Positions 27,045 to 31,132 of a DNA stretch of 64,000 bases are shown one piece after another. The stretch lies in the NCBI RefSeq assembly GCF_031624495.1, contig NZ_JAMQOP010000004.1, positions 372,001-436,000 of the forward strand, in the 5' to 3' direction. Both the position numbers and the translations under genes were made by a program. This stretch comes from Halogeometricum sp. S1BR25-6. Lineage in GTDB: Archaea > Halobacteriota > Halobacteria > Halobacteriales > Haloferacaceae. A model generated the notes under the pieces. It was not told the DNA's origin and did not search any database. It worked only from the letters and a program-made list of their open reading frames with translations. How positions within the stretch are numbered: the first letter of the stretch is position 1; every line of letters begins with the position of its first letter.

Positions 27045-27116
27045 AGCTTTATCACCGTCTCGTGGACACTACATGTTGCGACCGATATCACCGACCCACG
27101 ACATGTGGGTTAAACA
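27045..27116 (+). promoter_or_regulatory. nrd promoter with tandem NrdR-box-like palindromes
   Basis: A TATA-like GCTTTATC lies at about 27044-27051. Downstream are two ACATGT-centred imperfect palindromes: ACACTACATGTTGCGA (27066-27081) and CCACGACATGTGGGTT (27096-27111; inner CCCAC/GTGGG stem 27095-27109). Their centres are exactly 30 bp apart. Known NrdR boxes come as tandem pairs about 30-31 bp apart with a consensus near ACACTATATATAGTGT; the first box here agrees at 11 of 16 positions. They would cover the transcription start. Confidence 0.6.
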
Positions 27117-27142: not shown

Positions 27143-27685
27143 ATGGACTGCCCCGACTGCGGTCACGACCGGACGAGCGTCGTCGACACCCGGACCGGCG
27201 AGGACGGAGCGACCGTCCGCCGTCGACGGGAGTGTCAGCGGTGCTCGTTCCGCTTTACGACGTACGAACGACCCGAGTGGGAGACCCTCCAAGTGAAGAA
27301 ACGCGACGGACGTATCGAACCGTTCGACCGGGGGAAACTCCGCGCCGGCGTCGAACGGGCCGTCGAGAAGCGGCCCGTGGACGCGGCGACCGTCGAGTCG
27401 CTGGTCGAGGCGGTGGAGCGGGAACTGGCGGGGCGGGGGACGCGTATCGTCTCCTCCAGCCTCGTCGGCGAACTCGCCTCCGACCGCCTCCGAGACCTCG
27501 ACTCGGTGGCCTACATCCGGTTCGTCTCAGTGTACGAGGCGTTCTCGGACCCCGAGGAGTTCCTCGACGAACTCGACCGGGTGCTGGACGACCGGTTCGA
27601 GCGGTCCGACGGTTCCGACGACCCCGACGCGACGACGGACGACGACTCACCAGATGGCACGCACACAGACGACGCAGACGACTGA
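27143..27685 (+). CDS. nrdR: Ribonucleotide reductase regulator NrdR, 180 aa
   Basis: The N-terminal zinc ribbon has MDCPDCGHDRT and RRECQRCSFRFTTYER (two CxxC pairs). The ATP-cone follows: VKKRDGRIEPFDRGKLRAGV, then AVEKRPVDAATVESLVEAVE and SVAYIRFVSVYEAFSDPEEF. NrdR senses ATP/dATP and represses nrd genes. A 25-residue acidic tail exceeds bacterial NrdR (about 150-155 aa). The ATG at 27143 starts exactly at the zinc ribbon. The gene overlaps nrdA by 32 bases and lies behind tandem NrdR-box-like palindromes, so it likely represses its own operon. Confidence 0.95.
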   Translation: MDCPDCGHDRTSVVDTRTGEDGATVRRRRECQRCSFRFTTYERPEWETLQVKKRDGRIEPFDRGKLRAGVERAVEKRPVDAATVESLVEAVERELAGRGTRIVSSSLVGELASDRLRDLDSVAYIRFVSVYEAFSDPEEFLDELDRVLDDRFERSDGSDDPDATTDDDSPDGTHTDDADD

Positions 27686-30119
27686 CGCACAGCCACGAGC
27701 CATACTCGAACGCGCGCGACGCGGTCACGAAGACGTGCTCACCGACGAAGTGACCGACCGACTCCTCGAAGAGGCCGAGCGCAACCTCTACGATGGCGCG
27801 TCGGCCGACGAGGTGTACGAGGCTCTCGAAGGCGTGACGACGGCGCGAATCGAACGCGACCCCGCCTACAAGTACGTCGCCGCCGACGTGCACCGGCAGC
27901 GCTACTTCCGCCGGGTGACCGACGAGCGACTGACGGGCGAGGCGGCCGACGGCGAGACCGAGACGACGTACCGCGAGACGTTCCGCGCGAACCTCGAACG
28001 CGGCGTCGAGGAGGACCTACTCGACGAGCGACTCCTCGACGGCCGGTTCGACCTCGACGAACTCGCCGCGTCGCTCGCCCTCGAACGCGACGAGAAGTTC
28101 GACTACATCGCGATGTCGACGCTGACCCAGCGGTACTTCATCAAGACCGAACAGGGTGGCGAGCCGCTGGAACTGCCGCAGGCGTTCTGGATGCGAGTGG
28201 CGATGGGTCTCGCCATCGAGGAGGACGACCCCCAAGAGCGGGCCTTGGAGTTCTACGACGTGCTCTCGCGGCTCCTCTTTACCCCCTCGACGCCGACGCT
28301 GTTCCACAGCGGGACGACCCACCCGCAGCTGTCTTCCTGCTATCTCACCACCGTCGAGGACGACTTAGAGCACATCTTCGAGTCCTACAAACACCACGCG
28401 CAACTGTCGAAGTGGAGCGGCGGCCTCGGCAACGACTGGACGAACCTCCGCTCGGAGGGGGCGCTCATCAGTAGCACGGGCGTCGAGTCGACGGGGACGG
28501 TGCCGTTCCTGAAGATAAGTAACGACGTGACCGCAGCGATAAATCGGTCGGGCAAGCGTCGCGGCGCGGCGTGCGCCTACCTCGAAGCGTGGCACATGGA
28601 CTTTCCCGCCTTCTTGGACCTGCGGCGGAACACCGGCGACGAACGCCGCCGCACGCACGACATGAACACCGCGGCGTGGGTGCCCGACCTGTTCATGGAG
28701 CGGGTGGAGAACGACGAGGAGTGGACGCTGTTCTCGCCCGACGAGGTGCCCGAACTCCACGAGACCTACGGAGAGGAGTTCGCCGAATTGTACGAGGAGT
28801 ACGAGACGAAAGCCGAGAACGGGGAACTGCGGCAGTACGAGACGGTCGACGCCGCGGACCTCTGGCGGACGATGCTCACCCGCCTGTTCGAGACGGGGCA
28901 CCCGTGGATCACGTTCAAGGACCCCTGCAACGTCCGGTCGCCGCAGGACCACGTCGGTACCGTTCACTCCTCGAACCTCTGTACCGAGATAACGCTCAAC
29001 ACGAGTTCCGACGAGCACGCCGTCTGCAACCTCGGGAGCGTCAACCTCTCGAACCACGTTTCGGGCGAGGAACTGGACCGCGACGCGCTCTCCGAAACCA
29101 TCGAGACGGCGATGCGGATGCTCGACAACGTCGTCGACCTCTGTTTCTATCCCACCGACGAGGCCGAGTACTCCAACATGCGCCACCGACCCATCGGTCT
29201 CGGCGTGATGGGGTTCCACGAGGCGCTGATGCAGACGGGAACGTCGATGGCCTCCGAGGACGCCGTCGAGGCGGCCAACCGCTGGCAGGAGTTCGTCTCC
29301 TACCACGCCCTCCTGAACAGTTCCCGCTTGGCGAAGGAGCGAGAACCGTACGAGACGTTCGAGGGGAGCAAGTGGGACCGCGGACTCCTCCCGCACGACA
29401 CGGTCGACCTGCTGGAAGAAGAGCGCGGCCGCGAGATTCCGACCGACCGCTCGGAGACGATGGACTGGGACCGGGTGCGCGAGCACATCGCCGAGCACGG
29501 CATGCGCAACTCCAACACGATGGCCGTCGCGCCGACGGCGACGGTGTCGACCATCAACGGGACGACGCCCTCCATCGAACCCATCTACTCGAACCTCTAC
29601 GTTAAATCGAACATGAGCGGCGACTTCACCGTCGTCAACGAGCAGTTGGTCGAGGAACTGAAAGACCTCGACCTCTGGGACGAGGGGATGGTCGACCGGA
29701 TGAAATTCCACGACGGGTCCATCCAGGAGATAGCGGACATCCCCGAGGAGACGCGCGAACTGCACCGGAGCGCCTTCGAGATAGACCCGCGACACCAACT
29801 CCGCCTCACCGCCCACCGCGGGCAGTGGATCGACCAGTCCGTCTCGCACAACGTGTTCTTCCCGAGCACCGACGGCTCCCTCCTCGACAGCGTGTACAAG
29901 ACGGCGTGGCGACTCGGGATGAAGACGACGTACTACCTGCGGACGCTCGGCGCCTCGCAGATAGAGAAGTCGACGCTCGACATGGACGAGTACGGCCGGA
30001 CGCAGCGACGGGGCGGAGACGCGGCCGACGGAGACGAGGGCGCGGCGACCGACGGTGGTTCCGACCCCGACTCCGGTCTCGCCCGCGTCGAGGACCCGAC
30101 GTGCGACGCCTGTCAGTGA
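27654..30119 (+). CDS. nrdA: Ribonucleoside-diphosphate reductase, class I alpha subunit, 821 aa
   Basis: The radical-site residues are visible: Cys229 in PQLSSCYL (redox partner), Asn441/Cys443/Glu445 in SSNLCTEITLNT (thiyl radical and acid-base residues), Cys458 in VCNLGSVNL, and a Tyr-Tyr pair in TTYYLRTLGAS for radical transfer. The final residues PTCDACQ give the C-terminal redox Cys pair (817, 820). It reduces NDPs to dNDPs using the radical delivered by NrdB. Its start lies inside nrdR, and nrdB follows 20 bases after its stop, so nrdR-nrdA-nrdB are co-transcribed. Confidence 0.93.
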   Translation: MARTQTTQTTDAQPRAILERARRGHEDVLTDEVTDRLLEEAERNLYDGASADEVYEALEGVTTARIERDPAYKYVAADVHRQRYFRRVTDERLTGEAADGETETTYRETFRANLERGVEEDLLDERLLDGRFDLDELAASLALERDEKFDYIAMSTLTQRYFIKTEQGGEPLELPQAFWMRVAMGLAIEEDDPQERALEFYDVLSRLLFTPSTPTLFHSGTTHPQLSSCYLTTVEDDLEHIFESYKHHAQLSKWSGGLGNDWTNLRSEGALISSTGVESTGTVPFLKISNDVTAAINRSGKRRGAACAYLEAWHMDFPAFLDLRRNTGDERRRTHDMNTAAWVPDLFMERVENDEEWTLFSPDEVPELHETYGEEFAELYEEYETKAENGELRQYETVDAADLWRTMLTRLFETGHPWITFKDPCNVRSPQDHVGTVHSSNLCTEITLNTSSDEHAVCNLGSVNLSNHVSGEELDRDALSETIETAMRMLDNVVDLCFYPTDEAEYSNMRHRPIGLGVMGFHEALMQTGTSMASEDAVEAANRWQEFVSYHALLNSSRLAKEREPYETFEGSKWDRGLLPHDTVDLLEEERGREIPTDRSETMDWDRVREHIAEHGMRNSNTMAVAPTATVSTINGTTPSIEPIYSNLYVKSNMSGDFTVVNEQLVEELKDLDLWDEGMVDRMKFHDGSIQEIADIPEETRELHRSAFEIDPRHQLRLTAHRGQWIDQSVSHNVFFPSTDGSLLDSVYKTAWRLGMKTTYYLRTLGASQIEKSTLDMDEYGRTQRRGGDAADGDEGAATDGGSDPDSGLARVEDPTCDACQ

Positions 30120-30139: not shown

Positions 30140-31132
30140 ATGCCCATACTCAATCACGACGCGGAACACGACCCGAACAAGATACTGCCCATCGACTACG
30201 ACTGGGCGCGCCAGTACTACCGCGACGGCGTCGCCAACAACTGGGTGCCCGAGGAGATACCGATGCAGGACGACGTCGCCCAGTGGAACGGCGACGAACT
30301 CACCGACTCGGAGAAGCAGTTAGTCGAGTGGAACCTCGGCTTCTTCTCCACCGCCGAGTCGCTGACGGCGAACAACATCGTCCTCGCCCTCTACGAGTAC
30401 GTCACCGCGCCGGAGTGCCGGCAGTACCTCTTGCGGCAGGCGTACGAGGAGGCTATCCACACGGACACGTTCATCTACTGCTGCGACTCGCTGGGGTTCG
30501 ACCCCGACTACCTCTACGGGATGTACGAGCGCGTTCCCTCCATCCAAGAGAAAGACGACTTCGTCGTCGACCTGACGCGGAACCTCGACGACCCCGATTT
30601 CGAGGTCGAGGACACCGAAGACGTCCGCGACCTGCTCCGGGACCTCGTCGGGTTCTACGTCGTCATGGAGGGGGTGTTCTTCTACGCCGGATTCGCCATG
30701 ATGCTCGCGCTCCGACGGCAGAACAAGATGGTCGGCATCGGCCAGCAGTTCGAGTACATCATGCGCGACGAGTCGCTGCACGTGGGGTTCGGCGTCGACC
30801 TCATCAACCAGATCCGCACGGAGAACCCCGGCGTCTGGACCGACGAGTTCGGCGCGGAGGTGCGCGACCTCGTGGAGAGGGCCGTCGACCTCGAACAGAT
30901 ATACGCCCGCGAGGCCTGCCCCGACGACGTGCTCGGGATGAGTTCCGAACAGTTCGCCGAGTACGTCGAGTACATCGCCGACCGCCGACTGGGCCAGTTG
31001 GACCTCGAGGCGAGTTACGGAACGGAGAACCCCTTCCCGTGGATGAGCGAGGCGGTCGACCTGAACAAGGAGAAGAACTTCTTCGAGACGCAGGTGACCG
31101 AGTACCAGAGCGGCGGGTCGCTGGATTGGTGA
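30140..31132 (+). CDS. nrdB: Ribonucleotide reductase beta subunit, class Ic-like (no radical Tyr), 330 aa
   Basis: Metal-ligand pattern of R2 proteins: Glu73 (FFSTAES), Glu104 and His107 (AYEEAIHTDTFIYCC), Glu177 (VVMEGVFFYAGF), Glu211 and His214 (MRDESLHVGFG). The residue four after His107, where class Ia proteins have the radical Tyr, is Phe111, with Tyr113 two further on. The first ligand is Glu rather than Asp. This is the pattern described for chlamydial R2c, which uses a Mn/Fe cofactor in place of a tyrosyl radical. The C-terminus ends YQSGGSLDW, with an aromatic tail residue as needed for docking to alpha. Last gene of the nrd operon. Confidence 0.93.
   Translation: MPILNHDAEHDPNKILPIDYDWARQYYRDGVANNWVPEEIPMQDDVAQWNGDELTDSEKQLVEWNLGFFSTAESLTANNIVLALYEYVTAPECRQYLLRQAYEEAIHTDTFIYCCDSLGFDPDYLYGMYERVPSIQEKDDFVVDLTRNLDDPDFEVEDTEDVRDLLRDLVGFYVVMEGVFFYAGFAMMLALRRQNKMVGIGQQFEYIMRDESLHVGFGVDLINQIRTENPGVWTDEFGAEVRDLVERAVDLEQIYAREACPDDVLGMSSEQFAEYVEYIADRRLGQLDLEASYGTENPFPWMSEAVDLNKEKNFFETQVTEYQSGGSLDW

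Follow-up and report, generated by a model that had tools for sequence, protein, structure and literature searches.

The nrdB gene of Halogeometricum sp. S1BR25-6 very probably codes for the cofactor-bearing subunit of a class Ic ribonucleotide reductase, situated in an nrdR-nrdA-nrdB operon and using a Mn/Fe centre as in Chlamydia trachomatis. The following features were located in the window, i.e. the whole stretch of 64,000 nucleotides that was analysed:

27066-27081, no strand assigned: candidate NrdR box 1 (ACACTACATGTTGCGA)
27095-27110, no strand assigned: candidate NrdR box 2 (CCCACGACATGTGGGT), read by eye
27143-27685, + strand: nrdR, Zn-ribbon and ATP-cone repressor
27654-30119, + strand: nrdA, class I catalytic subunit, 821 amino acids
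30140-31132, + strand: nrdB, class Ic R2 subunit, 330 amino acids

The nrdB gene is a single open frame of 330 codons and a stop, and its product is the only R2 of its own genome. Pfam Ribonuc_red_sm matched residues 13-298 (E-value 2e-86), and the NCBIfam R2 model PRK07209.1 scored 546 bits (cut-off 309). On the basis of alignment, NrdB is a member of the R2 family with all six metal ligands (Glu73, Glu104, His107, Glu177, Glu211 and His214), an electron path of Trp35, Tyr206 and Tyr322, and Phe111 at the radical site, with Tyr113 two residues further, and it is accompanied by an intact NrdA. When NrdB was aligned by MAFFT with its E. coli counterparts NrdB and NrdF, residues Trp35, Glu73, Glu104, His107 and Phe111 corresponded to E. 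coli Trp, Asp, Glu, His and Tyr. Phe111 thus replaces the radical Tyr, with which it shares a column, and Glu73 likewise replaces the Asp ligand. The preliminary description had placed Phe111 at the radical position, which this alignment confirms, as the column contains no Tyr in NrdB. Class Ia or Ib was rejected for NrdB on the same Phe111/Glu73 pair versus Tyr/Asp in E. coli. A pseudogene or frame artefact was also considered and rejected, the frame being intact and the key residues identical in 92 of 92 relatives.

In a phmmer search against PDB chains, the top four matches of NrdB were 1syy, 4d8f, 2ani and 6y2n (E-values from 2e-124 to 7e-122), and the fifth match (5e-41) fell far behind these four R2c-type sequences. 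Three of them, 1syy, 4d8f and 2ani, are C. trachomatis R2c, including the F127Y mutant (2ani). Residues 10-330 of NrdB aligned with 26-346 of 1syy without gaps, so that each window position equals the 1syy position minus 16. The ligands paired as Glu73/Glu89, Glu104/Glu120, His107/His123, Glu177/Glu193, Glu211/Glu227 and His214/His230, the radical site as Phe111/Phe127 and Tyr113/Tyr129, and the second sphere and electron path as Phe181/Phe197, Tyr206/Tyr222, Trp35/Trp51 and Tyr322/Tyr338. Glu73 and Tyr113 accordingly stand where they had been placed at the outset, in the residue set of the chlamydial R2c. Tyr222 and Trp51 serve in the electron path of that enzyme (PMC4118035). In all, NrdB shares with C. 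trachomatis R2c (PDB 1SYY, 4D8F, 4M1I) the fold, all six ligands, the radical-site Phe with a Tyr two residues after it, the Trp/Tyr path and the C-terminal Tyr. It differs in its identity of only about 50%, in its archaeal, halophilic host, and in its haloarchaeal NrdA partner, which is without a recognisable ATP cone. The features by which an R2c was recognised, i.e. Phe111, Glu73, Tyr206, Trp35, Tyr322 and an adjacent NrdA partner, were all found.

The pairing of Phe and Glu at the radical and first-ligand sites is that of R2c (PMC8463856). Class Ic proteins have no stable Tyr radical; they form a Mn(IV)/Fe(III) centre with the help of O2 or H2O2, and this centre drives formation of the Cys radical in NrdA (PMC8463856, PMC4118035). 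By analogy, NrdB probably carries a Mn/Fe centre instead of a tyrosine radical; we infer the metal from the C. trachomatis enzyme because no purified archaeal R2c was found in the literature searched. As in that enzyme, Mn(II) would bind site 1 and Fe(II) site 2, O2 or H2O2 would oxidise Mn(II)Fe(II) to Mn(IV)/Fe(IV), and one electron entering via Tyr206 and Trp35 would bring the centre to Mn(IV)/Fe(III), its active form. The Mn(IV), in place of a Tyr radical, would then oxidise the active-site Cys of NrdA via Tyr322 and NrdA Tyr760-Tyr761, and the oxidised Cys would start ribonucleotide reduction. The initial wording of a radical-free design holds in so far as a stable Tyr radical is concerned, but a Cys radical is still made in NrdA, where the catalytic Cys and the Tyr pair are kept. 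The accompanying suggestion of oxygen tolerance was not borne out, since the class Ic centre needs O2 or H2O2 to assemble (PMC8463856, PMC4118035); the gain reported for R2c is stability to peroxide, and perhaps to other radical scavengers (PMC4118035).

The three genes follow in the order nrdR-nrdA-nrdB, with a 32 bp overlap between nrdR and nrdA and a gap of 20 bases between nrdA and nrdB; the nrdR start was set at MDCPDCG instead of an upstream GTG. NrdA residues Cys229, Cys443, Cys458, Asn441 and Glu445 aligned with the E. coli catalytic set, and Tyr760-Tyr761 and the C-terminal Cys817/Cys820 also aligned with E. coli NrdA. The E. coli positions concerned (Cys225, Cys439, Cys462, Asn437, Glu441, Tyr730, Tyr731 and two C-terminal Cys) all have the same residues in the window NrdA. 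The genome holds two large-subunit matches, the second of which is the B12-dependent NrdJ (NrdJ_Z, 729 bits; cut-off 400), and no NrdD was found in it. Class II reductase (NrdJ) works without oxygen, and NrdJ would supply DNA precursors when oxygen is absent.

Two ACATGT cores, at 27071-27076 and 27101-27106, precede nrdR at a distance of 30 bp from each other. Box 1 was the best match of the box scan of the window, and box 2 completes the pair from reading by eye. In similar upstream regions of 18 other haloarchaeal nrdR genes, box pairs 27-30 bp apart were present in 13, a count which is circular because the consensus came from the same sequences. Bacterial NrdR boxes are bound with spacers of 14-17 bp (PMC12051234), a spacing near that of the candidate pair. 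NrdR probably represses nrdR-nrdA-nrdB at this putative box pair ahead of nrdR. The 380 bases ahead of nrdJ showed no box pair on reading by eye.

A PF00268 profile search returned matches in 186 of 292 genomes from the taxonomic class to which the window's genome belongs. Matches above 180 bits fell into two groups, and none lay between 56 and 180 bits among the matches listed. Group 1 consists of the window and 92 fetched loci (30 + 62), the window standing outside the following counts. The 12-residue signature WEEHFYEFYEHY of the window NrdB and the Phe at the radical site were both present in 92/92 of the fetched loci, which were 74-91% identical to the window NrdB. Group 2 consists of 41 loci with 20-23% identity to it, all of them with Tyr at the radical site. 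Counted by eye, 93 genomes including the window's own had group 1 and 38 had group 2, the two occurring together only in G090. In Haladaptatus pallidirubidus, identical class Ic NrdB proteins are encoded at two places on one chromosome (L047 and L048).

In a 32-row alignment of proteins 56-88% identical to the window NrdB, Glu73, Glu104, His107, Phe111, Tyr113, Glu177, Glu211, His214 and Tyr322 were invariant. As read by tblastn, Phe also occupied the radical site in all 80 named loci, a sample biased by its selection for likeness to the window NrdB, which included Dependentiae, Spirochaetes, Verrucomicrobia, Nanohaloarchaea SG9 and one Woesearchaeota record. The suitability for the haloarchaeal habitat suggested at the outset is speculative, and the R2c-type subunit also occurs in Chlamydia, Dependentiae, Spirochaetes and Verrucomicrobia. 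In record L104, residue 73 is aligned as Pro but reads Glu by tblastn, probably owing to a frameshift in the record; L086 carries an X at residue 211. Four bacterial R2c-like proteins (L092, L098, L099 and L100) have Phe at position 206, the place of the C. trachomatis relay Tyr222, which indicates that this relay is not universal in R2c.

Three other readings of NrdB were weighed. A di-iron enzyme of class Ia type could hold its stable radical on another Tyr, e.g. Tyr113, only two residues away from Phe111 and among the invariant residues of the 32-row alignment; the same Tyr, however, occurs at the aligned place in C. trachomatis R2c, whose high activity depends on Mn/Fe (PMC4118035, PMC8463856), and we regard this reading as highly unlikely. 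The possibility that the class Ic scaffold is loaded with two Mn or two Fe in haloarchaeal cells is somewhat less remote, though still improbable: mismetallation of R2c is known (PMC8463856) and the second R2 group of haloarchaea is similar to class Id with its Mn2 centre, but the ligands and the second-sphere Phe181 and Tyr206 (C. trachomatis Phe197 and Tyr222) are the same as in the Mn/Fe enzyme. Class Id itself was rejected for NrdB. Class Id R2 proteins (F. johnsoniae, L. blandensis, F. ignava) share with it Glu as the first ligand and a metal-based oxidant, but they carry Tyr in the radical position, Lys and Trp at Glu+4 and Glu+7, respectively, and a Thr four residues before the last Glu ligand, motifs which the window's group is without; each of three motif patterns for the class was found in 0/93 members of that group.

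The reading of NrdB as an R2-like ligand-binding oxidase (R2lox) instead of a reductase subunit is the least credible of the three, with a next to negligible chance. Phe at the site and Glu as first ligand also occur in R2lox, as seen in six weak haloarchaeal matches, and the NCBIfam R2lox models do match NrdB weakly, but at 27-54 bits against cut-offs of 194-346, and both Tyr322 and an nrdA partner are present at the window locus. The six weak-match rows that were read (L220 was missed by a small profile; the census holds at least this many weak matches) have no C-terminal Tyr when aligned, and show GExxV where the window has AESLT; NrdB lacks the Val three residues after the first Glu, which is the crosslink site of R2lox. 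The loose motif GExxV occurs somewhere in 5/93 members of group 1 and is weak evidence alone.

The class Ic assignment of NrdB also agreed with a structure model and a tree. An AlphaFold2 model built from the 32 rows had a mean pLDDT of 79.4 and a pTM of 0.81; the 14 N-terminal and 26 C-terminal residues had pLDDT below 50. In a Foldseek search of the model against the PDB, C. trachomatis NrdB chains took ranks 1-13 and 6y2n rank 14 (TM about 0.8, E-values from 4e-22 to 2e-19), followed by an E-value of 4e-12 at rank 15. The rmsd was high (about 7.5 Å over about 306 columns), and together with the low-pLDDT ends this means that the model can be taken as evidence of the fold but not of the site geometry. 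In a quick maximum-likelihood tree of 99 rows with long branches, one branch (SH-aLRT 99) set off the haloarchaeal R2c, with other R2c as neighbours, and the window NrdB grouped with Halogeometricum limi and Halobellus. The tree took 12/41 rows of the second group (those with locus numbers divisible by three) and left out L086, L104 and L198 as well as L004-L033 and L116-L177. The nearest named record to the window NrdB is that of Halogeometricum limi (L052, 90%). The class Ic-like character, as first proposed, was backed by all sequence tests, i.e. PDB and NCBIfam searches, census, tree and model.

The window NrdA has no ATP cone above the Pfam cut-off (13.7 bits against 25.8, covering profile positions 22-78 of 88). 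N-termini were compared in the window NrdA (region 27654-28130), 41 other haloarchaeal NrdA (from L034-L074 and L104) and 31 NrdA from other R2c loci, the latter two sets being the 72 of L034-L113 with the NrdA start in view, no stops and no X. At an E-value of 0.01, PF03477 matched 2 of the 42 haloarchaeal sequences, window included (best 0.002), versus 27 of the 31 others (best 2e-37), which retain at least one cone each. The class Ic NrdA of haloarchaea has, as judged by this profile, lost a recognisable ATP cone, and dATP control of overall activity may be absent from it.

The group 2 type of haloarchaeal NrdB was called a normal tyrosyl-radical enzyme in 2010 (PMC3019208). The signs of class Id, which was recognised only afterwards, are Tyr paired with Glu, Lys at Glu+4, Trp three residues later, and a Thr by which the Tyr is kept at a distance from the metals (PMC8463856, PMC6754362). 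In group 2 (L178-L218), the Thr four residues before the last Glu ligand was present in 41/41 and the Glu-x3-Lys-x2-Trp pattern in 39/41; L205 was missed by Val for Ile before Glu only, and L198 is without that part. Glu is the first ligand in 40/41, the 41st again being without that part. Glu73, which had been pointed out as the first metal ligand, is indeed present in NrdB but is not a mark of R2c alone, because these Tyr-bearing R2s share it. One group 2 protein searched against the PDB had its best match in 6sf4/5olk, L. blandensis NrdB (E-value 2e-127), followed by 8dq3 and 6cwo, the latter of F. johnsoniae type, and the first C. trachomatis chain came at 3e-18. Haloarchaeal group 2 NrdB carries the sequence signature of class Id, and it follows that no R2 of class Ia or Ib type was found among the strong matches in the 292 genomes. 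A published statement of class Id for this group was not found in the literature searched, and we do not claim the assignment as unpublished. Genome G260 has two class Id-like nrdB copies: one is free of stops, and the other, L198, is interrupted by an in-frame TAG and is probably a pseudogene.

Class Ic NrdB in haloarchaea has been known since 2010. Lundin et al. 2010 distinguished two groups of haloarchaeal class I reductases and reported for Halogeometricum borinquense an nrdR-nrdA-nrdB order, NrdJ and a 'Radical Y to F substitution'; the group with the substitution (Halobacterium, H. borinquense, Halorhabdus utahensis and Natrialba magadii) was assigned to class Ic, and a transfer from bacteria was argued (PMC3019208). 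A phylogeny of 2013 also placed H. borinquense within the R2c clade (PMC3824934). The window NrdB shares with the 2010 group the change from Tyr to Phe, the H. borinquense operon order and an NrdJ in the same genome (PMC3019208), and no difference was found between them. The window adds a member to this group and the census widens its sample.

We would give about even chances to a wider reading, in which stable tyrosyl radicals are absent from the class I enzymes of all haloarchaea, Ic (Mn/Fe) and Id (Mn2) being two separate imports with a Mn-based oxidant, and the Ic line has dropped the ATP cone, with dNTP control left to NrdR and class II. Every strong R2 match in the 292 genomes is Ic-like or Id-like, a pattern that would make haloarchaea manganese-dependent for class I synthesis of DNA precursors. 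How structure directs the choice of metal in R2c was described as far from resolved, and in vivo use of Mn/Fe as shown, at that date, for no R2c (PMC4118035). High intracellular salt could change the metal loading of NrdB, and the haloarchaeal R2s are salt-adapted proteins for testing how scaffolds select metals.
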